Positions 698-13,010 of a stretch of 64,000 nt of DNA are shown piece after piece. The translations under genes were made by a program, and so were the position numbers. A model generated the notes under the pieces. It was not told where the DNA came from. It saw nothing but the letters and a program-made list of their open reading frames with translations, and ran no database searches. The stretch covers positions 1,790,231 to 1,854,230 of the forward strand of contig NZ_CH902578.1 in the NCBI RefSeq assembly GCF_000152805.1, written 5' to 3'. Source of the DNA: Maritimibacter alkaliphilus HTCC2654 (GTDB lineage Bacteria; Pseudomonadota; Alphaproteobacteria; Rhodobacterales; Rhodobacteraceae). Each line of letters starts with the position of its first letter. Within the stretch, counting starts at the first letter, position 1.

Positions 698-1066
698 ATG
701 AGGCAAAAACTCCCTGCGTCGTCACAACAGGCACGAATGTCGCTCGCCAAGGCCCTTATTCTTTCAATCATCCTAGCGTTCATTGGAATGTTCGAGGTGA
801 CGATGAACGTCGGTTCACACCATGATCCGGGCGTCGAGATTTCGCAAACCCATTGCGAATCCTGCCCTGAGGCCACTGAAATGGACACGTCCCGCGCACA
901 CGCGGGCGCTTGTTCGAGCGGAGCCAGCTGCATGCTCAATGCGGTCGAGGCCGCACAGCAGCCCATCGTATTTGTGCAGATGACGAGCGATTGGATGACC
1001 CCTGCCCCAAGCTCGACATTCGCGTCGACTCAACCCCAACTCGATCTGCCGCCTCCGCGCGCTTGA
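698..1066 (+). CDS. Small Cys-rich exported peptide, candidate copper-responsive upstream ORF (copy 1)
   Basis: A 122-residue protein with a hydrophobic N-terminal signal or anchor segment (about residues 14-33) and then a Cys/His-rich part with a CESC (CxxC) motif and CSSGASC. The C-terminus is Pro-rich and ends LPPPRA. Exactly 44 residues separate the last Cys from the end. The same spacing is found in two other small genes here (7725-8120 and 11812-12216), so they form a family despite low overall similarity. In Bordetella, DUF2946-type CruR peptides with a CxxC motif and a Pro-rich tail act as upstream ORFs controlling copper genes; this one precedes the cytochrome c/multicopper oxidase genes with a hairpin between. 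The start may be 698 (promoter position) or 737. A plain periplasmic copper-binding protein is the alternative. Confidence 0.6.
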   Translation: MRQKLPASSQQARMSLAKALILSIILAFIGMFEVTMNVGSHHDPGVEISQTHCESCPEATEMDTSRAHAGACSSGASCMLNAVEAAQQPIVFVQMTSDWMTPAPSSTFASTQPQLDLPPPRA

Positions 1067-1085
1067 GACTGTTCCCTATGTCATC

Positions 1086-1103
1086 CATCGGGGCGACCCG
1101 ATG
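1086..1103 (+). other. Hairpin between the small Cys peptide gene and cytochrome c
   Basis: CATCGGG (1086-1092), loop GCGA, CCCGATG (1097-1103): a perfect 7-bp stem with a GNRA tetraloop, 19 bases after the stop of the small ORF and 46 before the cytochrome ATG. There is no T run, so it is not an ordinary intrinsic terminator. Similar hairpins follow the other two members of the small-ORF family. Confidence 0.5.
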
Positions 1104-1149
1104 ATCCCGACCCGTGCAGTTGCGCGCGAACAGTTCGATCGAGAGTCAC

Positions 1150-1596
1150 ATGAACAAACCCCTGCTACTGGCCGTTCTGGCCGCCGCCGTCCTTGGCGGT
1201 ATCTACGTCGTCACCCGTCCCGGCACATCTGCCCAGGACACAACCACCAGTGCGGTCGCCGAACCTGCGGAAGGCGACCCCATCGTCACCGTCACCCTTC
1301 CGCAAACGCTCTCTGACCAAGCCCAGATGGGCGAGCGCGGCTTCAACGCGGTCTGCGCCGATTGCCACGGCGAAAACGCGCAGGGCAAGATGGGGTTCGG
1401 TCCGCCGCTGGTGCACAAGATCTATGAGCCGTCCCATCATGCCGATATGGCGTTCCAACTGGCGGTCCAGAACGGCGTCACGGCGCACCACTGGAAGTTC
1501 GGCAACATGCCTCCGCAAGAGGGGCTGACAGGTGCGGATGTGCAGGCGATCACGGCCTACGTCCGTGAACTGCAACGTGCGAACGGGATCGAATGA
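1150..1596 (+). CDS. Periplasmic c-type cytochrome (mono-heme)
   Basis: 148 residues from the ATG at 1150, which begins a clean signal or anchor sequence (MNKPLLLAVLAAAVLGGIYV); an in-frame ATG at 1114 lacks this logic. One heme c site, CADCH, lies near residue 71 and a downstream Met (FGNMPP) is a plausible sixth heme ligand, as in class I cytochromes. The stop overlaps the next ATG (ATGA), so it is translationally coupled to multicopper oxidase 1. A role as electron acceptor or donor for the oxidase is inferred from this coupling, not shown. Confidence 0.85.
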   Translation: MNKPLLLAVLAAAVLGGIYVVTRPGTSAQDTTTSAVAEPAEGDPIVTVTLPQTLSDQAQMGERGFNAVCADCHGENAQGKMGFGPPLVHKIYEPSHHADMAFQLAVQNGVTAHHWKFGNMPPQEGLTGADVQAITAYVRELQRANGIE

Positions 1597-2983
1597 TGGG
1601 GCGCCTCAATCTCACCCGTCGCGGTTTCTGTGCCGGGGGCGTGGCGGCGTTCAGCGTCCGCCCGACATGGGCCGCCACGCCCGATGACCTGACAGCGCGC
1701 AAAGCCCGCGTCCAGCTTGCCCCGGACGGCTACCCGATGACCGAGGTGTGGTCGTATGACGGCACGCTCCCGGGCCGAACGATCCGCGTCGGACAGGGCG
1801 AACGGGTCACCCGCCGTCTGGTCAACGACCTCGACGTGCCGACCTCGATCCACTGGCACGGCATCCGCATCGACAACGCGATGGACGGCGTGGCTGGCCT
1901 GACGCAGGACGCGGTGCCGCCCGGCCACACCTTCGACTATGACTTCGTGGCGCCGGATGCCGGGACCTACTGGTATCACGCCCACACCAATTCGATGGAG
2001 CAGGTGGCGCGTGGTCTGTCCGGGCCGCTGATCGTGGAAGAAGCCGACGCGCCCGAGGTGGACGCGGACGAGGTTCTGATTCTCGACGACTGGCTGATCG
2101 ACCCGGACAGCGGCCAGTTCTTCGATGACTTCAATCAGCCCATGGCCCTGTCCCATGCCGGGCGCATGGGCAACCTGATCGGGACCAACGGGCAGTATCA
2201 ATTGGAGCTGCCCGCACAGTCCGGTGCGCGGCTTCGGCTGCGCCTCATCAACGCGGCCAACGCGCGGATCGTCGTGCTGCGGCTTCGGGGGCTTTCGGGC
2301 TGGTCCGTCGCGCTCGACGGGATGCCGCTTGCCGCCCCGGAACCCATGATGGACGAGATCATCCTCGCCCCGGCGCAGCGGATCGACCTGATCGTCGACG
2401 TGACCGCGCCGGAGGGCGAAACCGCCGCGCTGCTTCGTCTCGACGATGACGACCAGTGGCGCGGTCAGGTCGCCTTCCCGGTGCGGGGCACGCGCTCCGG
2501 CCCCCGTCGCGACCGCCCGGCGGCATTGCCCCCCAATCCGAATACGGCGCTGCCCGACCTGACGGCCGCGCGGTCGCTCGACATGGTCATGGAGGGCGGT
2601 GCGATGGGGCGGCTCGGCATGGCCCGTTATCAGGGCCGCGACATGGGGTTTCGCGACCTTATAGGGCAGGGCCAGTTCTGGTCGCTCGCCGGTCAGGTCG
2701 GGCTTTCCGACGAACCCTTTGCCAGACTCGACCGCGGCGAGGTCGTCCGCCTGCGGATCGAAAACCGGACCGTGTTCGCCCATGCCATGCACCTGCACGG
2801 GATGCACTTTCGCAAGGTCGCGGCGGATGGCACCCTCGGCCCCCTGCGCGCACCATCCTGAGTATCCCCGAGGAACCGCTCGAAATCGCCGTCTCGGCCG
2901 ACAATCCGGGCAAATGGTTGTTCCACTGCCACATGCTCGGACACGCCAGGAGTGGTATGACCACTTGGATCGACGTCGCGTGA
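1593..2983 (+). pseudogene. Multicopper oxidase 1, split by a one-base deletion
   Basis: The frame from 1593 carries a Tat-type signal (NLTRRGFCAGG) and the cupredoxin-domain copper motifs HWHG, YHAHT and HAMHLHGMHF. It stops at 2861. The missing end, with the fourth motif WLFHCHMLGH, continues in the next frame to 2983. The break is at 2850-2851, where CTG CGC G-C ACC ATC lacks one base; CGC GAC ACC would restore frame and give the usual Leu-Arg-Asp-Thr. Without the last motif the enzyme would lack type 1 and type 2/3 ligands and be inactive. This may be a real pseudogene or a sequencing error. Members oxidise Cu(I), ferrous iron or phenols in the periplasm. Confidence 0.85.
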
Positions 2984-3010
2984 GCGACACAACAACAGTA
3001 AGGAGACTAA

Positions 3011-3445
3011 ATGAAAAAGATTATCGCACTGCTTCTCGTCGCCACCGGCACGGCGGCCTTTGCACACAGCGGCGTCAAGGACCCCGACGTGATGAACCGC
3101 ATGATGGGCATGTCCGAACTGGCCAAGCAGATGAAAGTCATCGGCTCCATGCACATGGGTCAGGAAGCCTTCGACGCTGAGGCTGTGAATGCGGCGCTTG
3201 CGTCCATCGCGGAAGAGGCATCCTACATCCCATCGCTGTTCGAGGTCGAGGCGCTCGACCCAAAGTCTGAGGCGCTGCCGTCGATCTGGGAGGATTTCGA
3301 GGGGTTCACGGCCAAGGCAAATACGCTGCGAGAAACGGCCAGTAGTCTTGCGGGCACCGTGGCCAATGCCGACGATCTGCGGCCGATCATGCACCAGATC
3401 GGGCAGGCTTGTAGCGCGTGCCACGCGGATTACCGCGCCGAATGA
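3011..3445 (+). CDS. Cytochrome c' / c556-type protein
   Basis: 144 residues with a cleavable signal peptide (cut likely after AAFA) and a single C-terminal heme site CSACH followed by HADYRAE. A C-terminal CxxCH in a four-helix bundle of this length is the hallmark of the class II cytochrome c' family (cytochromes c' and c556). A good Shine-Dalgarno (AAGGAG, 3000-3005) precedes the ATG. It follows the oxidase in the same unit and overlaps the next cytochrome by 4 bases. These proteins bind gases or pass electrons in the periplasm; the partner here is unknown. Confidence 0.85.
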   Translation: MKKIIALLLVATGTAAFAHSGVKDPDVMNRMMGMSELAKQMKVIGSMHMGQEAFDAEAVNAALASIAEEASYIPSLFEVEALDPKSEALPSIWEDFEGFTAKANTLRETASSLAGTVANADDLRPIMHQIGQACSACHADYRAE

Positions 3446-3870
3446 GACTGGCGGTTGCAAACTTCGCCTGCGCGGCCCCCACCGCGCAGGCCGACCACCG
3501 GTTCGAGGGCATGGATATTGCTGAACGCTAAGCGCTGTATGTCGAACACTGTGCGGCCTGCCACGTTGCGAACCTTGAGGGCCAGCCAGACTGGAAATCA
3601 CCGGGGCAGGACGGACTCTTGGGAGCACCCCCGCATGACGAAACGGGCCATACGTGGCACCACAACACGGGCCTGTTGACGGATTACACCTTGCACGGTG
3701 GCCAAGCGGCTCTCAACGCGCGCGGCGCAAAAGGTTTCACCAGTGGGATGCCGGCGTTCGGGGACCTGCTGTCCGAGGAAGCGGTGCTCGACATTCTCGA
3801 ATTCATTCGGTCGACCTGGCCGCGAGAGGTGCAGGAGGTTCAGAGCCACCGATCACACGTCACCGTCTGA
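3442..3870 (+). pseudogene. Class I cytochrome c gene with an in-frame TAA
   Basis: The ATG at 3442 overlaps the cytochrome c' stop. The frame has a short signal-like start, then a TAA at 3529-3531 (codon 30), and continues open for 113 codons with a heme site CAACH just after the stop, a possible Met ligand (FTSGMPAFG) and a C-terminal helix typical of small cytochromes c (EEAVLDILEFIRSTWP). Everything except that one codon looks intact. Initiation downstream would lose the signal peptide, so the product is probably not made as a holocytochrome. Confidence 0.75.
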
Positions 3871-3891
3871 TCGGCTGATCGTGTGCACCAC

Positions 3892-4188
3892 TCAGCCAAT
3901 CAGCAGCTTCTTACGGGCGGTATAGTCATCGGCGTCGATCTCGCCACGCGCGAAACGCAGGTCGAGTTCTGTGAGCGCGGCCGAAGCCTTGCCGACATGG
4001 GTAGTGCCCTCCATGCGTCGGACGAACCAGATGATCGCAGCCACGATCAAGCCGAGGACGATCAACCAGAGAACCGGGCCGAACATCATGCCGGCACCGT
4101 AGCCCCAGTTCATCGTGTGATCGTAGCCCTCTGGATCGGCCAGTGCCGGTTGAGCGAACAGCGCAAGAGCGAGTCCAAGGCGTTTCAT
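3892..4188 (-). CDS. Small membrane protein with C-terminal SHOCT domain
   Basis: 98 residues: signal peptide (cut after PALA), a Met/His/Tyr-containing periplasmic part, one transmembrane helix (VLWLIVLGLIVAAIIWFV, about residues 39-56) and a C-terminal SHOCT motif (LTELDLRFARGEIDADDYTARKKLL). SHOCT is a short oligomerisation element. Such proteins are common in bacterial copper and heavy-metal clusters, without an agreed biochemical role. It reads in the same direction as the CusF-multicopper oxidase unit upstream, with its own ribosome binding site (GGAGG). Confidence 0.75.
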   Translation of the reverse strand: MKRLGLALALFAQPALADPEGYDHTMNWGYGAGMMFGPVLWLIVLGLIVAAIIWFVRRMEGTTHVGKASAALTELDLRFARGEIDADDYTARKKLLIG

Positions 4189-4197
4189 GTCATCCTC

Positions 4198-4213
4198 CAG
4201 TTTCTAGAAACTG
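4198..4213. promoter_or_regulatory. Perfect 16-bp palindrome before the SHOCT gene
   Basis: CAGTTTCTAGAAACTG is a perfect palindrome that begins at the ribosome binding site and lies about 10 bases upstream of the SHOCT-protein ATG. It is a plausible operator or RNA hairpin; no known regulator is identified. Confidence 0.35.
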
Positions 4214-4334
4214 CACCTTCAGACTACGACAGAGCGCTTCGAGCTAACTTGATCCAGCGCAACAACACAGGGTCGTGATAGGGCAAGGGCGCTCCGGTTT
4301 CCCGGAGCGCCCAATCGCACTGCTACCAAACGGA

Positions 4335-4634
4335 TCACTCGGCGGCGATCTCAGTCACGGTGAGCTTGCCTTTCACGCGGTCGGCGAGGAACTCGATCTC
4401 CTGACCTTCGGCCAGACCTTCGATCATGGCAGGATCGGCGACTTCAAAGACCATCGTCATCGCTTCCATATCGAGATTGACCAAGGGCCCATGATCGATG
4501 GTCAGGCGATTCCACTGGCTGTCGACTTTGGTGATCGTGCCGGAGCTCATCTCCACCGCGGCGGCATCCGCATGGCTTTCAGCTTGGGCGGTGGCCGTGA
4601 ACATGGCGAAGGCGAGGGTTATCAGGTATTTCAT
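4335..4634 (-). CDS. CusF-type periplasmic copper-binding protein
   Basis: 99 residues with a signal peptide (cut after TAQA) and a single CusF-like fold. The segment SSGTITKVDSQWNRLTIDHG then NLDMEAMTMVFEV carries the aromatic and Met residues that CusF proteins use to bind Cu(I)/Ag(I) by a Met-Met-His-Trp set. CusF normally delivers Cu(I) to a CusCBA efflux pump; no CusA or CusB is in the window, so here the partner may be the multicopper oxidase just upstream (36 bases). Last or next-to-last gene of the 8120-to-4335 leftward unit. Confidence 0.8.
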   Translation of the reverse strand: MKYLITLAFAMFTATAQAESHADAAAVEMSSGTITKVDSQWNRLTIDHGPLVNLDMEAMTMVFEVADPAMIEGLAEGQEIEFLADRVKGKLTVTEIAAE

Positions 4635-4669
4635 TTTGTGTCCTTTCGAGACGTCTGAGGGGATCAGGA

Positions 4670-6037
4670 TCAGCCGCGACGAACGTGGTCGCGGGGGGAG
4701 ATGATGGTTTCAGGGCTGGTGTTCCGGGCTTCCTCCGGTAATTCGCCGGTCCATTCCCAGGCTTCGGTGCCGGGCGGATTTTCATACCAACCGGGGTCCG
4801 CGTAATCGTCGGGCGCAATCCCTTCGCGCACCTTAACGACCGAGAACATGCCCCCCATTTCGAGCGGACCGTAGGGCCCCCAGCCGGTCATCATCGGCAC
4901 GGTGTTGTCTGGCAGTTCCATCGACATTTCGCCCATGTCGGCCATGCCTGCGGTGCCCATCGGCATGTAGCCCTGCGTTTCCCGCCGGATCATGCCAGTG
5001 AGCCTACTCTTGTCTGCTCCGATGAAGGTCGGCAGGTCATGACCCATCGCGTTCATCGTGTGGTGCGATTTGTGACAGTGGATCGCCCAGTCGCCTTCGT
5101 GCACCGCGTCGAACTCATAGGCACGCATCGCGCCCACGGGGATGTCGATGGAGACCTCCGGCCAGCGGGCGCTTTCCGGCACCCATCCGCCGTCGGTGCA
5201 TGTCACCTCGAAATCGTAGCCGTGCATGTGGATCGGGTGGTTCGTCATGGTGAGGTTGCCACAGCGCACCCGGACGCGGTCCCCCTTATTCACCACGAGC
5301 GGGTCGATGTCGGGGAAAATCCGGCTGTTCCACGTCCACATGTTGAAGTTGGTCATTTCGGCCACGCGCGGGATGTAAGTCCCCGGATCGATGTCATAGG
5401 ACGCGAGGAGGAAGGCGAAGTCGCGGTCCACAGGCATGAAGGACGGGTCGCGCGGATGCACGATGAACAGTCCCATCATGCCCATGGCCATCTGCACCAT
5501 CTCATCCGCGTGAGGGTGATACATGAAGGTGCCCGACTTGGTCAGGTCGAACTCATAGACGAACGTCTTGCCGGGCGGGATCGCCGGGTGGCTGAGACCT
5601 CCGACACCGTCCATGCCGGAGGGCAGGATCAGCCCATGCCAATGGACCGACGTGTGCTCCGGTAGGCGGTTGGTGACATAGATGCGCACCCGCTCGCCTT
5701 CGACAGCCTCGATAGTAGGACCGGTCGACTGGCCGTTATAGCCCCAGAGCCGGGCCATCATGCCACTCGCCATGATCCGCTCGACAGGTTCAGCGACCAG
5801 ATGGAACTCTTTGACGTTGCCGTTCATGCGCCACGGCAACGACCAGCCGTTGAGCGTCACGACCGGGTTGTAATCCGGGCCGTTGTCCGGTCGCAGCGGC
5901 ACCATCGTGTTAGGGCTGTCGTAGAACGCAGCTTCCGGCAAATCGCGATACCGCGTTTCGGCACGGCCGGCCGAGGTCATGGCGAGGCCCGCGCCTGCCA
6001 GTCCGGCCCCTGCGGTGAGGAGTTGTCTGCGGTTCAT
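4670..6037 (-). CDS. Copper-resistance multicopper oxidase (CopA-type)
   Basis: 455 residues. The start MNRRQLLTAGAGLAGAG is a Tat signal, as expected for an enzyme that is folded and metallated in the cytoplasm. All four copper motifs are present: HWHG, YHPHADE, HPIHMHGYDF and HCHKSHH. A Met-rich segment near the C-terminus (MPMGTAGMADMGEMSMELP) resembles the Met-rich inserts of cuprous oxidases. Expected role: periplasmic oxidation of Cu(I) to less toxic Cu(II). The stop of tolC overlaps its start by one base, so the two are coupled. Unlike oxidase 1 this copy is intact. Confidence 0.85.
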   Translation of the reverse strand: MNRRQLLTAGAGLAGAGLAMTSAGRAETRYRDLPEAAFYDSPNTMVPLRPDNGPDYNPVVTLNGWSLPWRMNGNVKEFHLVAEPVERIMASGMMARLWGYNGQSTGPTIEAVEGERVRIYVTNRLPEHTSVHWHGLILPSGMDGVGGLSHPAIPPGKTFVYEFDLTKSGTFMYHPHADEMVQMAMGMMGLFIVHPRDPSFMPVDRDFAFLLASYDIDPGTYIPRVAEMTNFNMWTWNSRIFPDIDPLVVNKGDRVRVRCGNLTMTNHPIHMHGYDFEVTCTDGGWVPESARWPEVSIDIPVGAMRAYEFDAVHEGDWAIHCHKSHHTMNAMGHDLPTFIGADKSRLTGMIRRETQGYMPMGTAGMADMGEMSMELPDNTVPMMTGWGPYGPLEMGGMFSVVKVREGIAPDDYADPGWYENPPGTEAWEWTGELPEEARNTSPETIISPRDHVRRG

Positions 6038-7449
6038 CAGTCGTTTCCTCCTGTGGGGCCACCCCAGATGGCAGCAGTCATGTCGGCCTCGGCGCGCCAG
6101 TAATCGGCCTTGGCCTCCGCATAGCTGATCTCGGCGTCCAGCCGTTCGCGGGCATCGGCGATAAGTTCAAAGGTCGACGACAGCATCCCGTTGTAGGACT
6201 TCAGCGCCTCCTCATCGATCACGCGGCGCAGCGGCAGGACTTCGTCCCGCCAATGCTGCGCGATGGAGTATTTGCCCGTGACTGCGGCATGCGCAGTGCG
6301 CGCCTCGGACCGCGCGTTGACCGCGGCCTGAGCCAGTTCGTTCGCGGCTCGCATATAGGCCAGTTCACCGCGGCGGTTCGCGATCTTACCGGTATCGTAA
6401 AGCGGGATCTCAAAACTGACCTGCGTGACCGGCGACACAGTCGTCTGTCGTCCCGTGCTCGTGATGGAACGCTCCGCTTCGACCCCGGCAACCAACCCGA
6501 TGTCTGAGATCATGCGCGTCTGACCGGCCAGTCGATGTTCCTGTGCGATTACCTCCAGTTCGAGCCGGCCAATGGCGAGGTCGGTTCGGTTTTCCAGTGC
6601 CAGACGTTCCACATCGGCGCGCCCTGGTCGCACGCCGGGCAGTCCCGGCAGACGATCAGGCACGAAAAAGTCGATGTCTGTGCCCCAAAGCCCCATGAGT
6701 CGCGTCAGGCGTTCCTTCGCCAGTTGTGCCTCGAGCCTCGCATCGGCCCGCTCCGCGGCGAGTTCTGCGGTAAAGACATGCTCACGCGCCTGATCGGCCC
6801 GGTTCATCGCTCCGGTGCGACCAAGCTCGGAAGCGAGCTCGGACGCAGCATCGGCAGTTCCCTGTGCCCGACCGATCAACGCAGCCGTTTCGAACGCCGC
6901 GACGGCGTCGATCCAGGCCTGCCGCGTTTCCGTCGCCAAGGCGATTGTCGCGCCGAGCGCTTCGAACTGAGCCTGTTGGAAATGCGTCTGGGCGAGCGCC
7001 TTACGCGGCTTCAAGGTTGCTGCATCGAGGATCGCGCCGGTCACGGCGGCCTCAAGCGACCGCGCCAAGCCGACCTCACCGATCCCGGAAATCGTGACAC
7101 CAAAAGACGGGATCGGCCCGAGCGCCACCTCCCACAGATCTGCAGCGGAAAGCCCCAGATCGGAATAGGCCGCCTGAAGCCCACGATTGTTCATCAAAGC
7201 CACCTGCACCGCAGTGTCGGGGCCGATGGTTTTGTGGAAAACGAGCGACCGGGCGCGTGCCTCGTTCGCGGCCACGTCAGCGGCCGACAGCGCCAAGACG
7301 CCGTTCGCGCCTGTCGCCTGTCTCGTGACGCGCGACACCGTCTCGAACCCCGCGCCGGGAGTCGAAACCTGATTGACGAGCGCGGTGTCCGCGCAGGCGG
7401 CAAGCACGAGCGGCACCAGCGCCACTCCTGTTCTGAGAGCCAATCTCAT
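6037..7449 (-). CDS. TolC-family outer membrane channel lipoprotein
   Basis: 470 residues with a lipoprotein signal (VLAACAD, lipidated Cys near residue 19). The body has the long Ala/Glu/Arg-rich amphipathic helices and the internal duplication typical of TolC/CusC outer membrane efflux proteins. It overlaps the small lipoprotein gene upstream (4 bases) and the multicopper oxidase downstream. No RND pump or membrane fusion protein is nearby, as in other alphaproteobacterial copper clusters where an outer membrane protein of this type is paired with a CopA oxidase. Channel function for copper is inferred from context. Confidence 0.8.
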   Translation of the reverse strand: MRLALRTGVALVPLVLAACADTALVNQVSTPGAGFETVSRVTRQATGANGVLALSAADVAANEARARSLVFHKTIGPDTAVQVALMNNRGLQAAYSDLGLSAADLWEVALGPIPSFGVTISGIGEVGLARSLEAAVTGAILDAATLKPRKALAQTHFQQAQFEALGATIALATETRQAWIDAVAAFETAALIGRAQGTADAASELASELGRTGAMNRADQAREHVFTAELAAERADARLEAQLAKERLTRLMGLWGTDIDFFVPDRLPGLPGVRPGRADVERLALENRTDLAIGRLELEVIAQEHRLAGQTRMISDIGLVAGVEAERSITSTGRQTTVSPVTQVSFEIPLYDTGKIANRRGELAYMRAANELAQAAVNARSEARTAHAAVTGKYSIAQHWRDEVLPLRRVIDEEALKSYNGMLSSTFELIADARERLDAEISYAEAKADYWRAEADMTAAIWGGPTGGND

Positions 7450-7664
7450 GATGCGGACCCCGGTGCTTGGGCGTCATTGAGGCGACGCCAGTCTTCAGGT
7501 GCGGTGATGGGGCGCGACGTATGCACAACGGTCGGCCCGAACGGCATCAAAACGGCGGTGGCTGGATCGGCGGCACGGATCAACGGCGCGGCGAGGGGTG
7601 GCTCGAACGGCTTTTCACAGCCAGCGAGCACGAGCGGCACGGCGGCCGCCAGGAACAGTCTCAT
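7446..7664 (-). CDS. Small lipoprotein of unknown function
   Basis: 72 residues with a lipobox (VLAGCEK, Cys near residue 16). The mature part is Pro/Ala-rich (FEPPLAAPLIRAADPATAV) with no known domain. It overlaps the TolC-like gene by 4 bases, so it is translationally coupled and may be a partner of the channel. Confidence 0.6.
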   Translation of the reverse strand: MRLFLAAAVPLVLAGCEKPFEPPLAAPLIRAADPATAVLMPFGPTVVHTSRPITAPEDWRRLNDAQAPGSAS

Positions 7665-7694
7665 GATTAGTCTCCGGAAAGGATCGACACGTCA

Positions 7695-7710
7695 GGCGGA
7701 GCAGTCCGCC
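7695..7710 (-). other. Hairpin between small Cys peptide 2 and the lipoprotein gene
   Basis: GGCGGA, loop GCAG, TCCGCC: a perfect 6-bp stem that can extend by three more pairs across a one-base bulge (CAG/CTG). It begins about 14 bases past the stop of the small ORF. There is no T run. It is the counterpart of the hairpins at 1086-1103 and 11789-11807. Confidence 0.5.
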
Positions 7711-7724
7711 CTGCGAAAGCGCGA

Positions 7725-8120
7725 TCAGGCCTTCGGCGGTCGCCGCAATCCGGTCGGTTGCGATAGCTCGTTCAGCCCGGCGAAAGACCAACTGCGCGGA
7801 ATGACCGAGGTTGTCCGGATCTGTGCGGCGTGCATGTTCAAGACCGAAACCTCCGCGATACACGCGTCTTCGCAGCAAAAGGGCGTGGTCGCCTCTGTCA
7901 GTTCGGAATGTCCGGTGGGCTCGGCATGCCCGGCGTGGTCCATAGTTCCAACGCCATGAGCCGCGTGAACGTCTTCACCGCCGTTCGTGGTTTCGGTCGC
8001 AGTGAATGCCATCCTCTGTTCACAAAGCATATCACCTGACATAGCCGACGATGTGACCGGTGCGATCACGACAAAAGGCAGGGTCAGGGCCAACATCAAT
8101 GCGATAAAGGAGCGTCTCAT
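7725..8120 (-). CDS. Small Cys/His-rich exported peptide, candidate copper-responsive upstream ORF (copy 2)
   Basis: 131 residues from the ATG at 8120, which begins a good signal sequence (MRRSFIALMLALTLPFVV). The middle is His-rich (HAAHG, HAGHAEPTGH), followed by FCCEDAC. Exactly 44 residues follow the last Cys, and the protein ends GLRRPPKA. Spacing and tail match the genes at 698 and 11812. It is the first gene of the leftward lipoprotein-TolC-oxidase-CusF unit. Either it binds copper in the periplasm or it is a sensory upstream ORF of the CruR kind; the shared tail favours the second. A longer frame starting at 8225 exists but lacks a signal at its N-terminus. Confidence 0.6.
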   Translation of the reverse strand: MRRSFIALMLALTLPFVVIAPVTSSAMSGDMLCEQRMAFTATETTNGGEDVHAAHGVGTMDHAGHAEPTGHSELTEATTPFCCEDACIAEVSVLNMHAAQIRTTSVIPRSWSFAGLNELSQPTGLRRPPKA

Positions 8121-8128
8121 TGTGCGCG

Positions 8129-8158
8129 CATAATCCACTGGCGCTTGAGAACTGACAA
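8129..8158 (-). promoter_or_regulatory. Promoter for the lipoprotein-TolC-oxidase-CusF unit
   Basis: Read on the minus strand: TTGTCA (8153-8158), 18 bases, ATTATG (8129-8134). The predicted transcription start falls within a few bases of the ATG at 8120, so the message is nearly leaderless, as also predicted for copy 1 of the small-ORF family. Confidence 0.4.
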
Positions 8159-8265
8159 GCCACGATCTCGTAACCGTTCTCCTTTTCTGCGTCCCTCTCT
8201 GCTGAATCCCAAACGCCGGCCCCAAGGCAGAAACGGCGCCCGGCGGGGCGGTCTGAATTTCGCCC

Positions 8266-8296
8266 TTGACCCTCCAGTAACTGGAAGCCCCATCTT
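8266..8296 (+). promoter_or_regulatory. CueR/MerR-type copper promoter of copA
   Basis: TTGACC (8266-8271) and CATCTT (8291-8296) are 19 bases apart, the over-long spacer that MerR-family activators correct. The spacer holds the dyad CCAGTAACTGG within CTCCAGTAACTGGAAG, close to the CueR/HmrR consensus. A copper-responsive MerR regulator should therefore control copA, but none is encoded in the window. Confidence 0.75.
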
Positions 8297-8325
8297 AGAT
8301 GTGTAATCGAACGCCGGAGCCCGAC

Positions 8326-10791
8326 ATGCCGCAAGACCACGACACGCACCACCATGACACCGATGCCCCGAGCACCACGCGCGACCCGGTCTGCGGCATG
8401 CTTGTCGACCCGGCTGCGGGCAAACCGACCGTCAACCACGAAGGCCACACCTATCACTTCTGCTCGGACAACTGCCGGGACAAATTCCGCGCCGAACCTG
8501 ACGCCTATATCACCGCGAAAGACCCGGTCTGCGGCATGGATGTCGCGCGCGCCAGTGCCGAGCACATGGTGAAGCACGAGGGGCAGAAGCACTACTTCTG
8601 CTCCGAGCGATGCCAGTCGAAGTTCGGGGCCGACCCGAACACTTACCTCGGCGACCGACCGCAGCAGGCTGAGATGCCCAAGGGCACCCAATACACCTGT
8701 CCCATGCACCCGGAAATCATCCGCGACGCCCCCGGCGACTGCCCGAAATGCGGTATGGCGCTGGAACCCGTGACGCCCTCGGCGGACACCGGGCCGAACC
8801 CCGAACTCGTCGACTTCAGACGGCGCCTGTGGATCACGGGTCCGCTGGCGCTAGCCGTGTTCGTGCTCGAGATGGGCAGCCACCTGGGTTTGCCGTTTGC
8901 GGGCTGGATCGGCCATACGGCGTTCGGCTGGCTGCAATTCGCGTTCGCCACGCCGGTGGTGCTGATCTGCTACCCGTTCTTCAAACGCGGCTGGTCGTCG
9001 ATCGTGAACGCCAGCCCGAACATGTGGACCCTGATCGCGCTCGGCACCGGGGCGGCGTATCTCTTTTCCATCGTCGCCCTGATCGCCCCCGGTCTGTTTC
9101 CCGACGCTGTGCGCGGCGACATGGGCATGGCCCCGGTCTACTTCGAAGCGGCGGCGGTCATCCTCGTCCTCGTTCTGATCGGGCAGGTGCTCGAACTTGC
9201 GGCTCGGGATCGGACCGGCGATGCGATCCGCGCGCTGATGGACCTCGCGCCAAAGACCGCGCGGCGTGTGACCGATGACGGCGAAGAGGATGTGGAACTG
9301 GACGCGGTCCAGACCGGCGACATTCTCCGCGTGCGCCCCGGTGAAAGCGTGCCCGTCGACGGCATCGTGACCGAGGGCCGCACCTCCGTCGACGAAAGCA
9401 TGATCACGGGGGAACCCGTCCCGGTCGAAAAAACCGAAGGCGACGACCTGACCGGCGGCACGTTGAACAAATCTGGCTCGGTTCTGATGCGCGCCGAAAG
9501 CGTGGGGGCGGATACGACACTCAGCCGGATCGTGGATATGGTGGCCAATGCCCAACGCTCCCGCGCGCCAATTCAGGGGCTCGCCGACCGGGTGTCGCTG
9601 TTCTTCGTGCCCACCGTGGTTGCCGTCGCGATCGCGGCGTTCATCGCCTGGATGGTTTTGGGCCCAGAGCCGCGACTGTCCTACGCCTTCGTCGCGGCCG
9701 TCTCGGTCCTCATCATCGCCTGTCCCTGTGCGCTTGGCCTCGCCACGCCTATGTCGATCATGGTGGCCACCGGTCGCGGTGCGCAGGCGGGTGTCCTGAT
9801 CCGAGATGCCGAGGCGCTGGAGCGGTTCTCAAGAGTAGATGCGCTGATCGTCGACAAGACCGGCACGCTGACCGAGGGCAAGCCGGCCCTGACCGATGTC
9901 GAGCCTGTGGGCGAGGTGACGCGAGACCGCCTCCTGTCCTTCGCCGCGGCGTTGGAACGCGGTTCCGAGCACCCGTTGGCCGAGGCTATCGTCACGGGCG
10001 CGAAGGTGGCCGGCGTGCCCATGCTCGACGCCAAGGACTTTGAGGCTGTCACCGGGAAGGGCGTGAAAGGCCGTGTCGACGGATCAGAGGTGCATCTGGG
10101 CAACGCAGCCCTGCTCGTGGACGCCGGCATAGACACGGGTTCGCTCGATGACCGTGTGAGAGCCCTGCAATCCGACGGCAAGACCGCGATGTTCGTCGCT
10201 ATCGACGGCGCGCCTGCTGGCGTCATCGCGGTGGCGGACCGGATCAAGGACAGCACACCCGACGCGATCCGCGCGCTGCACGACGCTGGCCTGCGGATCA
10301 TCATGGCGACGGGCGATGCCGAGGCCACGGCACAGGCGGTCGCGCGCGACCTCAACATCGACGAGGTCCACGCAGGCGTCAGCCCCGAAGACAAGCAGGC
10401 TCTGGTCGAGAAGCTGCGCGGCGAGGGCCTCTCGGTCGCGATGGCGGGCGACGGCGTCAACGATGCCCCGGCCCTTGCCGCGGCCGACGTGGGTATCGCT
10501 ATGGGAACGGGCGCGGACGTCGCCGTTGAGAGCGCCGGTATCACGCTCGTCAAAGGCGATCTGGGCGGCATCGTGCGCGCGCGCCGACTGGCCGAGGCGA
10601 CGATGCGCAACATCAAGCAGAACCTGTTCTTTGCCTTCGTCTACAACTCCGGCGGCGTGCCGCTCGCGGCGGGTGTGCTGTTCCCGATCTTCGGCGTGCT
10701 CCTGTCGCCCGTCGTGGCGGCGGCGGCGATGAGCCTGTCCTCCGTGTCGGTGATCGGCAATGCGCTCCGCCTTCGGCTGGCCAAGCTCTAA
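8326..10791 (+). CDS. copA: Copper-translocating P1B-type ATPase
   Basis: 821 residues from the ATG at 8326, chosen because GGAG lies 8 bases upstream; an ATG at 8299 overlaps the promoter region. Order: His-rich start, two YHS/TRASH-like modules each beginning DPVCGM, a heavy-metal-binding module (YTCPMHPEI ... CPKCGMAL), then the membrane core with the ion-binding CPC motif (IIACPCALG), phosphorylation site DKTGTLTEG, the HP motif ([10 protein letters not shown]) and the [10 protein letters not shown] hinge. MSLSSVSV in the last helices is the copper-ATPase signature. It expels Cu(I) from the cytoplasm to the periplasm, where the oxidases act. Confidence 0.95.
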
Positions 10792-11233
10792 CGCCACCGC
10801 AGGATCTCCCAGCAAGTCGCCTAACGGGTGGCTACGACCTCGGTCGCAAAAAGACTCTTCGTCGTAGTCCGATCCGCCAATGGCAGTGCAGACCCTTGGC
10901 GCACCGCTCGCTCCCAGACAGCGATAAGCGCCGTCGTTAGAAATATTTTGCGAGAACTGACAAGGAAGGGGGGAGGTTGCAAACGAGCGGGTCTGGTTGC
11001 ACAGACTACGCGTAGCGGGAATCGGTCAACAAGCTGCGCAGCGTGCAAAGGCGCTGACGTGCGTGCGAAGTGGAGCGCGTCTGGCGCAGGCGGTCTAGGC
11101 TTGGCCACCTTTAGTGGGCATATACTCGACCCAAGCCTCCGACATTTTCAACAAAAGCCGATACCAATCTCATGCGGATAGCAGCCGCGCCGCTGGAACG
11201 ATCCACCGGCGCGGACAATGTGCTGAAAAGTGG
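10792..11233. other. Gap with no convincing gene
   Basis: About 440 bases between copA and the cupredoxin gene (which ends here). Overlapping frames on both strands are open but biased in composition, lack ribosome binding sites and show no recognisable domain. cueR is often next to copA in related islands, but neither strand here encodes a MerR-type helix-turn-helix. No clear terminator was seen. Confidence 0.4.
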
Positions 11234-11758
11234 TCAATTCATGGTAGCTTCTCGCAATAAACTGAACGTGCCTTTCATGCCCGCCTCGCGGTGTCCCGGA
11301 ACGTTGCAAGCGAACCCGACCTCGCCTTCTTCGGGGAAGGTCCAGATCACTTCTGCCGTCTGATTGGGGGCGAGGAGCACGCTGTTCGGATCGTCATGCA
11401 TCATCCCTGCCTCTTCCATGCGCGCGTGCCGTATCTCTCTAGCGGTGATCATACCTTTGCGCATCATGGCATTCATTTCGGCGCGGTGGCCGTCCCAGGT
11501 CGAATCCGTCCCGATGTTGAATTCATGAATGAATTGCCCAGTGTTGGTGACAACGAAGCGCACGGTTTCGCCTGGCTCGACTACGATTGTCTTAGGGTCA
11601 AATTTCATTTCTTTCATTGCCACCTCGATGGTGCGGTTCACGTTGCCGGGGCGGCCGGCCTCGCCGAAGCCGACGTCGGTGCCGTGTCCAGGGCTCGCCA
11701 GCACAAAGCCGGGCAAAATTGCGATGGCGCAGACGGCGCCGAAAGTTTTGACGTGCAT
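11234..11758 (-). CDS. Periplasmic cupredoxin (plastocyanin-like copper protein)
   Basis: 174 residues from the ATG at 11758, preceded by AAGGAG; longer starts run into the small upstream gene. A signal peptide (cut near VLAS) is followed by one cupredoxin domain. Copper ligands are visible: HEFNIG supplies the first His, and the loop ACNVPGHREAGM supplies Cys, His and Met in the C-x4-H-x4-M spacing of type 1 sites. A Met/His-rich insert (MMRKGM, MMHDD) resembles copper-resistance cupredoxins. It follows the third member of the Cys/His small-ORF family after a hairpin. Role: periplasmic copper binding or electron transfer. Confidence 0.85.
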   Translation of the reverse strand: MHVKTFGAVCAIAILPGFVLASPGHGTDVGFGEAGRPGNVNRTIEVAMKEMKFDPKTIVVEPGETVRFVVTNTGQFIHEFNIGTDSTWDGHRAEMNAMMRKGMITAREIRHARMEEAGMMHDDPNSVLLAPNQTAEVIWTFPEEGEVGFACNVPGHREAGMKGTFSLLREATMN

Positions 11759-11788
11759 TTGATATCTCCTTTTGTGCACTGATATTGA

Positions 11789-11807
11789 GACGGGCTTGTC
11801 ACCCGTT
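11789..11807 (-). other. Hairpin between small Cys/His peptide 3 and the cupredoxin gene
   Basis: ACGGG and CCCGT pair across a 7-base loop, with one more G-T pair possible. It starts 5 bases past the stop of the small ORF and lies about 30 bases upstream of the cupredoxin ATG. Weaker than the hairpins at 1086 and 7695 but in the same place relative to the genes. Confidence 0.4.
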
Positions 11808-11811
11808 CGCG

Positions 11812-12216
11812 TCAAATCCCTGCACGAGGAACAGGTGGGTCGGAGATAAAATCGGCGGCCGTGAGCCGCGAATTGCGGAAGGTCCTGCGCGAATGCGTGT
11901 GGGGTCGGACCTCAGCGGGACCCGACGTTTCAAAGAACCAGACTTGCACGTGACAGTCGATGCTCGGATGACAATGGACTTCGTCAGACGCTTTCTGAAC
12001 GGTGCGATGATGGCCCACTTGTTGCGTCTCGGCTGCGCGGTGGTCAGAAAGGAGGTTGGCAGCCGAGACCGGCACGACAGGTGACAGCGACGTCAGTAGG
12101 CAGAGAAATGCGACAAGGTAATGTCGGAAGAGGCTCACGAAATTGCTAACTTTTTGATCGGTGCCCTGCACTCTTAGCTCTGTTCCAGCGTCGGCCGGTG
12201 TGTGGTTGCTTACCAT
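11812..12216 (-). CDS. Small Cys/His exported peptide, candidate copper-responsive upstream ORF (copy 3)
   Basis: 134 residues if started at the ATG at 12216; another ATG is at 12222. A hydrophobic segment (YLVAFLCLLTSLSPVVPVSA) acts as signal or anchor. It is followed by a His-rich part with CHPSIDC (C-x5-C, as in copy 1). Counting from the last Cys, the 44th residue is the Ala of VPRA, the same distance as in the other two copies; two more residues follow. It lies directly upstream of the cupredoxin gene. Function as a copper-sensing upstream ORF is inferred; copper binding as an exported peptide is the alternative. Confidence 0.55.
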   Translation of the reverse strand: MVSNHTPADAGTELRVQGTDQKVSNFVSLFRHYLVAFLCLLTSLSPVVPVSAANLLSDHRAAETQQVGHHRTVQKASDEVHCHPSIDCHVQVWFFETSGPAEVRPHTHSRRTFRNSRLTAADFISDPPVPRAGI

Positions 12217-12660
12217 ATTCATGCATCTTGTTCGATTTGCACTGTCAATGATGCCCGTCATCGGCACTGCTACTACCTGCCCTAGATACCATTCTGCCGT
12301 TTCAGGTCGCACGGGAACGACGGGCAGCAGATTTATCTTCCTTGAGGTTGAACGGCTAAACCATCCTGCAGGAGCGGTCAAAGGTCGAAAACGGATGCGC
12401 GCGAGAATCCGCTCCTGCAACGGGGCAGCCCCGATGGCCCGAGGGGATGGCGCAAAAAAATTTTTCTTATGATGCTGTAACTTTGGCAACGGTTTGTTCG
12501 CCACTTGGCTCGGAGCTTGCACAAGAGCTGTGGCATCACACCGGGCCAAAATTGTTTCGGGTCAATGGCATGGCGGGCGGCGCAACCACTATGACTTGGA
12601 CAGTGGGCGAAGATCAGACCCAGATTCGGCATAATGGTTGGCTCCGTCGTCGAACCCGGC
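12217..12660. other. Divergent promoter region and degenerate start of the EF-hand gene
   Basis: On the minus strand TTGACA (12243-12248) lies 17 bases from a poor -10 (TGCATG, 12220-12225), which would start the small Cys/His gene near its ATG. The rest is lower in GC and contains no recognisable gene. The 5' part of the EF-hand reading frame (12447 to about 12680) shows no protein-like pattern. Confidence 0.35.
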
Positions 12661-13010
12661 GTGATGACTGCACGCAGGGGTTGACGGGGAACGAAGCTTT
12701 CGCCTCCAACGGTGATGGCCGCGTGACCTTCGAGGAGATGGAGCAAGGCATGGGAGACCTTCAGGTCAAGTTCGATGCCCACGGAAACGGCACCCTTTGG
12801 CTCGACGGGTTCGAGGCGCTTTACGCCAGCGTAATGCGCGAGCACATGGTCGCCATGTTCCAGGATCTCGACTCAGACGGCGATGGCGAGGTCACCGTGG
12901 ATGAAATGCAGGAGCCTGCCAGGATGTTTGAGCGCATGCGCCGCTACTGGTCCGAAGATGGTAGTCCGGGTTCCATGATCGATGACGGCCCGATCATGAA
13001 CGACGACTGA
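12447..13010 (+). CDS. EF-hand calcium-binding protein, probably degraded at its 5' end
   Basis: The open frame gives 187 residues, but only about the last 105 look like protein. They hold EF-hand-type loops: SNGDGRVTFEEM, DAHGNGTLWLDGF and DSDGDGEVTVDEM (the best match, with Asp at 1, 3, 5 and Glu at 12). Exported EF-hand proteins of this kind usually have a signal peptide and more loops; neither is visible upstream, and the first 75 residues are of odd composition. I read it as a truncated or frameshifted relic whose start cannot be fixed. Such genes recur in copper islands, role unknown. Confidence 0.5.
   Translation: MAQKNFSYDAVTLATVCSPLGSELAQELWHHTGPKLFRVNGMAGGATTMTWTVGEDQTQIRHNGWLRRRTRRDDCTQGLTGNEAFASNGDGRVTFEEMEQGMGDLQVKFDAHGNGTLWLDGFEALYASVMREHMVAMFQDLDSDGDGEVTVDEMQEPARMFERMRRYWSEDGSPGSMIDDGPIMNDD

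Follow-up and report, generated by a model that had tools for sequence, protein, structure and literature searches.

What is the role of three small open reading frames (ORFs) of Maritimibacter alkaliphilus HTCC2654 that each carry a cysteine cluster and lie directly ahead of copper genes? The ORFs, referred to as leaders 0001, 0002 and 0003 (Table 1), are located in a stretch of 64,000 nucleotides (nt; NCBI RefSeq assembly GCF_000152805.1, contig NZ_CH902578.1, positions 1,790,231 to 1,854,230 of the forward strand), which is called the window here. With a probability of roughly 0.76, we take them to be CutF-type copper-sensing leader peptides, in which a pause prolonged by copper would open a stem hiding the Shine-Dalgarno sequence of the next gene. 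The central idea, a copper-sensing arrest leader, was put forward for these ORFs in a first-pass annotation and is already published; the value added here over the published CutF-like kind is, as judged by sequence comparison, a 43-residue ruler and a predicted family-wide pairing between the leader end and the following Shine-Dalgarno sequence.

Leaders of the CutF type are small Sec-exported ORFs that carry a Cys motif, end in a Pro-rich stretch and are found ahead of copper genes (PMC9973294, PMC8456105). CutF is described as acting in cis via a stem that hides the next Shine-Dalgarno sequence; with copper, export of the growing chain is delayed and the following gene is expressed (PMC9973294). 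Cu-dependent CutO requires the Cys motif, the Pro-rich end, the Sec signal and the stem-loop of CutF, and the same authors count 45 residues between the Cu motif and the C-terminal proline motif, place the Cu motif in the periplasmic vestibule of SecY, and list 5,334 CutF-like proteins by simple rules (PMC9973294). Variants of the metal-binding motif CxxxC are known (PMC8456105). Conserved spacing has also been reported for DUF2946 (PMC9426467), and arrest of CruR has been shown in vitro (PMC12992588), while at the time of PMC10987492 the arrest of CruR and CutF had not yet been demonstrated. Copper-sensing nascent chains have come to light recently, and two worked examples, CutF and CruR, respond to copper in opposite directions (PMC9973294, PMC9426467).

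The three ORFs lie exactly where the first-pass annotation had placed them, and each has the hydrophobic segment and the Cys cluster ascribed to it, with best 15-residue Kyte-Doolittle means of 2.55, 2.76 and 2.32 in leaders 0001, 0002 and 0003. This N-terminal segment is a candidate for the Sec signal peptide, cleaved by signal peptidase I, that the rules for CutF-like proteins call for (PMC9973294). The testable rules for CutF-like proteins apply to all three: they are shorter than 150 amino acids, have PP among the last 15 residues, contain a Cys motif, and are followed on the same strand by a gene, under the rules mostly one for metals, less than 1000 nt away (83, 60 and 53 nt after leaders 0001, 0002 and 0003). 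The Cys rule (CxxxC or a variant) is represented by CEDAC in 0002 and by Cx5C in 0001 and 0003. The leaders have 44, 44 and 46 residues after the last Cys, with two additional residues (GI) beyond PRA in leader 0003. The annotation had counted 44 residues from the last Cys to PRA, PKA and PRA; this holds for the Ala at 44, and the Arg/Lys is residue +43 in all three, but the C-terminus is not the fixed point. Its statement that no obvious domain covers the ORFs agrees with the scans, since no family was found above the cut-off in Pfam (chance-level matches at E 0.28 for 0001 and 0.044 for 0003) or in NCBIfam, NF033807 (CopL) included. DUF2946 (PF11162) was rejected as the family of the leaders: a search of the 4.5-Mb genome gave no match (E up to 0.001), and the three ORFs themselves do not match it. 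As for the proposed diverged family with CruR as precedent, the idea of a copper-sensing leader fits, but the kind already has a name, CutF-like (PMC9973294, PMC8456105).

Single-sequence searches of 198 genomes of the same family (E up to 0.001) gave matches to 0001, 0002 and 0003 in 5, 6 and 2 genomes, the own genome included, and no plasmid relative of any of the three leaders was found by tblastn (E up to 0.001). Profiles A2 for the 0001-type, A1 for the 0002-type and A3 for the 0003-type, each run against 394 genomes of the same family (E up to 0.01), matched 13, 13 and 36 genomes, respectively. The 69 match rows (A1 14, A3 39, A2 16) comprise 56 used as leaders and 13 unused, namely G139, G380 and G176 for A1; G389 (= L074, which still looks leader-like, with Arg at +43), G143, G363, G327 and G085 for A3; and G146, G156 and G161:C2 for A2, plus repeats of counted loci at G258:C29:14308 and G258:C58. 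By leader end and gap, 49 of the 56 are distinct: 11, 11 and 27 of types 0001, 0002 and 0003, here subfamilies 1, 2 and 3. This genome holds five clear leaders by combined profile, the three of the window, a 0001-type at C4:2425290-2425637 (-) and a 0003-type on contig C7. Six weaker own-genome matches were set aside; the four inspected as ORFs look like chance, and the remaining two have E 0.17 and 0.24. Nonsynonymous divergence (Ka) is below synonymous divergence (Ks) in 8/8 leader pairs, and the Ka/Ks of about 0.2-0.4 argues that the leaders are real proteins.

The spacing seen in the window recurs among these relatives. A Cys lies exactly 43 residues ahead of an Arg/Lys in 41 of the 49 distinct leaders, and PP is found among the last 15 residues in all 49. 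The stretch between Cys and Arg/Lys is divergent, its middle being little conserved among homologues of other genera, and the mean column identity of alignment A5 is 20% overall (39 of the 49 leaders, the same number that entered the PF11162 and NF033807 scans of relatives). Beyond the Arg/Lys there are 1 to 5 residues, exactly 1 in 11/11 leaders of subfamily 2 and in 8/11 of subfamily 1, and 3 in 23/27 of subfamily 3; the fixed point is thus the Arg/Lys and not the C-terminus. Free variation of tail length, which had been set beforehand as a check, is therefore not what the relatives display.

A stem that would hide the next Shine-Dalgarno sequence, as in CutF, is predicted in the window from exact 7-bp complements, first noticed by eye, in 0001 and 0003, and is weak in 0002. 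Pairing statistics were obtained for 40 leaders that are <75% identical over their last 63 nt, with the starts of the next genes picked by hand among candidate starts; L006 and L055 were counted separately, although they are almost the same from the anti-Shine-Dalgarno of the leader end through the gap into the downstream DNA. Duplexes of tail and Shine-Dalgarno region average -11.8 kcal/mol when matched, compared with -9.4 kcal/mol when mismatched (permutation p 5e-5, also within subfamilies) and -9.8 kcal/mol for synonymously recoded tails (Wilcoxon p 1e-5). Upon partner shuffling, a left arm at -30..+12 nt around the leader stop gives z = -7.7 (-6.4 within subfamily) and one at -42..0 gives z -5.2, and no excess was seen in upstream control windows (-81..-39, z 0.5; -120..-78, z 2.0; -162..-120, z -1.2) or between the leader end and either the downstream early codons (z -0.7) or the initial 20 nt of the gap (z -0.2). 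With a 15-nt window slid across the region, matched pairs differ from mismatched ones by -0.5 to -2.0 kcal/mol where the window lies between -39 and +6, by -0.24 kcal/mol at -3..+12, and by between -0.11 and +0.72 kcal/mol elsewhere, which confines the excess to about -39..+12 nt around the stop. A contiguous helix of at least 7 bp with the Shine-Dalgarno core is present in 24/49 leaders versus 5, 2 and 4 of 49 in the three upstream control windows.

The footprint of a ribosome is about 28 nt. Where the Arg/Lys codon was mapped (n=29), 28 helices of at least 6 bp lie within -24..+18 nt of this codon, and their centres cluster either 11-19 nt ahead of its first base or 3.5-12.5 nt past it, with one at +19; a ribosome paused at the Arg/Lys codon would cover both clusters or have them at its edge. 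Furthermore, a compensatory A-U to G-C change distinguishes leader 0003 from its same-genus relative L030 (ATCTCC/GGAGAT to GTCTCC/GGAGAC, with one outer pair lost). In a pairing model in which all nucleotides as far as the leading edge of a ribosome parked at P-R were barred from pairing, mean Shine-Dalgarno pairing per subfamily falls from 0.74-0.76 to 0.40-0.52, and among the window leaders from 0.84 to 0.25 in 0001 and from 0.63 to 0.19 in 0003. At the level of sequence, the comparative evidence supports the leader geometry and, for two of the three subfamilies, the predicted RNA switch.

In agreement with the first-pass annotation, each window leader heads a unit of copper proteins, in which Pfam finds a cytochrome c and an oxidase; OEP/TolC, an oxidase and CusF; and a cupredoxin. 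The first downstream gene in subfamily 1 encodes a small CxxCH cytochrome c-like protein (10/11) or a multicopper oxidase with an RR signal (1/11), and in subfamily 2 it is a 67-72-aa (amino acid) lipoprotein-like ORF in 11/11, with a lipobox pattern match in 7/11 and, by eye, GC at that place in the others. In subfamily 3 (n=27) a cytochrome c'-like protein with CxxCH near its end follows in 22, one with a cytochrome c'-like start that is broken or cut short in 3 (L031, L052, L072), and a cupredoxin in 2, window leader 0003 and L030. A Pfam check of ten first-gene proteins agreed for four cytochromes c', three cytochromes c, one cupredoxin and one oxidase, and gave no family for one lipoprotein-like protein. 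The broken frames in L052 and L072 span 54 and 56 codons, with leader and 7-bp Shine-Dalgarno helix present.

A wider context was surveyed over about 8 kb on each side (some regions cut by contig ends) with five window copper proteins as queries; a region counted as positive if it held an oxidase or copper ATPase match with E <1e-20 or a CusF match with E <1e-6. Positive were 20/20 0003-type regions versus 1/19 controls, of which L112 just misses the cut-off at 2e-19; a further control, L117, one of 20, was dropped for overlapping a leader region. In a second set 13/18 regions were positive (6/6 0002-type, 3/3 0003-type and 4/9 0001-type). The anticipated enrichment near copper genes is thus borne out in the first comparison and in most of the second set, though in fewer than half of its 0001-type regions. 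That leaders always precede copper genes did not hold: an oxidase matches at 3e-20 in one of the five negative 0001-type regions, and the other four (G117, G259, G016, G039), out of the 18 of the second set, match none of the five queries. The corresponding leaders (L137, L138, L141, L142) lie ahead of a small gene for a cytochrome c-like protein, and within ~8 kb the five queries recognise no copper gene; some 0001-type leaders may thus serve the cytochrome alone.

The ORFs, the Cys-to-Arg/Lys spacing, the gene contexts and the complementarity of leader and Shine-Dalgarno sequence are observed, and a CutF-type mechanism would connect them as follows, with export, pausing and copper dependence carried over by analogy from CutF. 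The leader would be made with its Sec signal and exported during translation. With the ribosome at the P-(R/K) codons of the C-terminal Pro-rich end, the Cys cluster would be 43-49 residues from the arrest residue and thus, by the published CutF estimate, in the periplasmic vestibule of SecY, where bound copper would prolong the pause. The paused ribosome would cover the last leader codons and the stop, which otherwise pair with the next Shine-Dalgarno sequence, and with the stem open the downstream gene (cytochrome c/oxidase, lipoprotein/TolC/oxidase/CusF, or cupredoxin) would be translated. Without copper the chain would be pulled out, translation would end, the stem would re-form and the next gene would stay low; copper binding and this direction of response are, like the pause, inferred.

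Several points weigh against this mechanism. In the CutF work, the Pro-rich end alone gave no arrest of LepB fusions, and the CutF stem-loop is described as intergenic (PMC9973294). Eight of the 49 leaders deviate from 43: four have 42, 44, 44 and 45, two keep only the first Cys (48 and 49), and two are without P-R/K in the last 16 residues; moreover, the search profiles spanned the tail, which favours kept spacing among the relatives found. Subfamily 2, with leader 0002, makes a weak case for the RNA switch. In the model the parked ribosome hardly frees the Shine-Dalgarno sequence of leader 0002 (0.68 to 0.63), and pairing even rises in three relatives (L009, L010, L015). The end of leader 0002 forms no contiguous helix with the Shine-Dalgarno core, while a control window of this leader has one of 10 bp, and in subfamily 2 the natural leader ends have no pairing advantage over synonymous recodings (median fraction 0.50, 9 leaders). 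The fold z-scores versus shuffles are modest (0001 -2.55, 0002 -0.17, 0003 -0.78), and just 4/9 0001-type regions are positive in the copper-gene survey. Our confidence in the CutF model was slightly lowered by this last count and by the subfamily 2 site that stays paired under the modelled ribosome.

The main rival for the RNA part alone is plain translational coupling, in which any ribosome finishing the leader would open the stem, with no copper-dependent pause and with an incidental peptide. An anti-Shine-Dalgarno within the last codons or stop would by itself give such coupling; however, it leaves unexplained why the Cys clusters are conserved, why the leaders carry signal segments and end in Pro-(R/K), and why a spacing of 43 residues is kept across a stretch that diverges, and CutF in cis together with its Cys and Pro motifs is reported as required for Cu-dependent CutO (PMC9973294). 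We therefore regard coupling on its own as unlikely. Alternatively, the ORFs might have no part in regulation and encode exported chaperones that provide the downstream cuproproteins with copper; a chaperone was the earliest proposal for CutF (PMC8456105), and the Cys clusters and copper-gene context would suit it. Yet a fixed 43-residue tail and matched anti-Shine-Dalgarno codons would be needless for a chaperone, and CutF works in cis only and was not detected in cells (PMC9973294), which leaves this proposal highly improbable.

A leader of the CruR kind would act the other way round, with a constitutive arrest released by copper, after which Rho would stop transcription and copper would switch the operon off. 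The layout of Cys motif, about 45 residues and Pro motif is shared with CruR (PMC9426467), and weak similarity to DUF2946 was seen in 3 of the 39 scanned leaders (best E 0.059). The gap to the next gene, however, is 32-91 nt in the 49 leaders versus 162 nt in cruR-bfrG, the C-terminus is PP-R/K and not RAPP, the genome is devoid of DUF2946 matches at the threshold given above, and the downstream genes resemble copper defence, which would be expected to be copper-induced. We consider a CruR-like response very unlikely here.

Beyond the CutF-type reading of the window, we give even odds to the idea that CutF-like leaders are an exchangeable cassette, in which a fast-diverging sensor lies exactly 43 residues from the arrest Arg/Lys, the codons near the arrest point, together with the stop, form a 3' platform with the anti-Shine-Dalgarno of the following gene, and the paused ribosome would be the switch. 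If true, this would amount to a general design rule, with the arm placed beneath the ribosome, either some 11-19 nt ahead of the Arg/Lys codon or some 3-12 nt behind it, and cassettes could be re-fitted to new genes, as with cytochrome c' in most 0003-type relatives and the cupredoxin in this genus. Three diverged subfamilies that keep one spacing and, jointly, one leader/Shine-Dalgarno arrangement support the CutF direction (pause = on) for many operons. In addition, the leaders offer exact residues and silent codon changes for testing, and a route to leaders missed by domain searches.

The second 0001-type operon of the genome bears on such modularity. From the first base of the anti-Shine-Dalgarno on, it is 96% identical to that of the window over 1,000 nt, and just upstream 123/200 nt are identical (L006 versus L055); the identical run begins 6 nt before the anti-Shine-Dalgarno arm, with a jump from about 60% to 96%, and the two leader proteins are 52% identical. 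Sensor part and switch-plus-operon part differ in their history; since a single event underlies the comparison, the place of the boundary may be due to chance. The 0003-type leader on contig C7 (L070, G000:C7:14293-14595) and its surroundings are 97.9 to 99.97% identical over 3.3-4 kb to L033-L037 and L071. Such copies occur in this genome and in five others, each listed as a different genus, with two copies in G035; the L070-type region is a recently mobile copper island.

Table 1. Leaders, pairing elements and downstream genes of the window (coordinates are window positions)
Feature	Position	Strand	Remarks
Leader 0001	698..1066	+	122 aa, CutF-like ORF; signal segment, CESC and CSSGASC clusters, C-terminal PPPRA
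Cys cluster CSSGASC of leader 0001	911..931	+	codons 72-78; last Cys 43 residues ahead of Arg in PPPRA
Anti-Shine-Dalgarno arm CTCGATC of leader 0001	1040..1046	+	codons directly ahead of PPPRA
GATCGAG, Shine-Dalgarno region of cytochrome c gene	1137..1143	+	exact complement of 1040-1046
Small cytochrome c	1150..1596	+	first gene under leader 0001; Pfam PF00034
Multicopper oxidase	1593..2861	+	Pfam; C-terminal HCHMLGH motif in other frame (ORF 2456-2983), apparently frameshifted
Leader 0002	7725..8120	-	131 aa, CutF-like ORF; CCEDAC, C-terminal RRPPKA
Cys cluster CCEDAC of leader 0002	7860..7877	-	includes CxxxC like Rhodobacter CutF
GC-rich GGCGGActgcTCCGCC hairpin	7695..7710	-	between leader 0002 stop and Shine-Dalgarno
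CGGAGA, Shine-Dalgarno of lipoprotein-like gene	7671..7676	-	predicted pairing with leader 0002 end weak
72-aa lipoprotein-like ORF	7446..7664	-	first gene under leader 0002; no Pfam match
OEP/TolC	6037-7449	-	Pfam; 3' of lipoprotein-like ORF
Multicopper oxidase of leader 0002 operon	4670-6037	-	Pfam
CusF	4335-4634	-	Pfam; leader 0002 operon
Leader 0003	11812..12216	-	134 aa, CutF-like ORF; CHPSIDC, C-terminal PPVPRAGI
Cys cluster CHPSIDC of leader 0003	11953..11973	-	last Cys 43 residues ahead of Arg in PPVPR
Anti-Shine-Dalgarno arm TATCTCC of leader 0003	11842..11848	-	codons directly ahead of PPVPR
GGAGATA, Shine-Dalgarno of cupredoxin gene	11763..11769	-	exact complement of 11842-11848
Cupredoxin	11234..11758	-	gene under leader 0003; Pfam PF00127

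Several features surround these elements. The C-terminal HCHMLGHARSGM stretch of the oxidase under leader 0001 is off-frame (ORF 2456-2983; region 1593-2983, + strand), an apparent frameshift or sequencing error, and a paralogous operon elsewhere in the genome (L148) matches this oxidase at 95% identity over 419 residues. Hairpins of different sequence appear, by eye, at the place matching that of the leader 0002 hairpin in several 0002-type relatives; a MAFFT alignment of 10/11 distinct 0002-type leader ends misaligned the hairpin and was therefore unusable for a covariation count. Divergent from leader 0002 lies a copper-type P-ATPase (8299-10791, +) with two YHS stretches and a heavy-metal binding domain, for which no leader ORF of its own was seen, and an EF-hand protein ORF (12447-13010, +; Pfam EF-hand) adjoins leader 0003 in divergent orientation.

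Among known systems, the secM-secA pair would be alike in that ribosome pausing where an exported leader ends unmasks, by opening a stem, the Shine-Dalgarno sequence of the following gene, whereas SecM senses export, not copper, and has a different arrest sequence (PMC10987492). CopL of Xanthomonas/Stenotrophomonas (NF033807) is also a cis-acting ORF ahead of a copper oxidase (PMC9973294); its family is touched by 2 of the 39 scanned leaders (best E 3e-4), but not by the three window ORFs. CruR/DUF2946 of Bordetella pertussis shares the upstream ORF, the Cys motif, a fixed 45-residue spacing, a Pro-containing arrest motif and the copper operons, while it differs from the window leaders in RAPP, a long intergenic region, an operon turned off by copper via Rho and a signal peptide that is unneeded (PMC9426467). 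The CruR pattern of CXXC, about 45 residues and RAPP is approached by the window leaders in Cys cluster and spacing, but with PP-R/K or PPVPR in place of RAPP. The closest likeness is to CutF of Rhodobacter capsulatus (cutFOG), a small exported ORF directly ahead of copper genes with a Cys cluster, a C-terminal PP-R and a stem hiding the Shine-Dalgarno sequence, export and stem being predicted for the window leaders; a search for cutF itself by its published C-terminus gave 0 matches, then 5 in Acidobacteria, Bryobacterales and Arthrobacter records. According to the published residues (C73, R117), the Cys-to-Arg distance of CutF is 44, compared with 43 in the window leaders, and its Cys motif is CxxxC, compared with Cx5C in 0001 and 0003. 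The first gene is an oxidase in CutF, and a cytochrome c, a lipoprotein-like ORF or a cupredoxin here; finally, the stem-loop of CutF is intergenic as published, whereas the pairing arm of the window leaders lies in the leader codons or stop.

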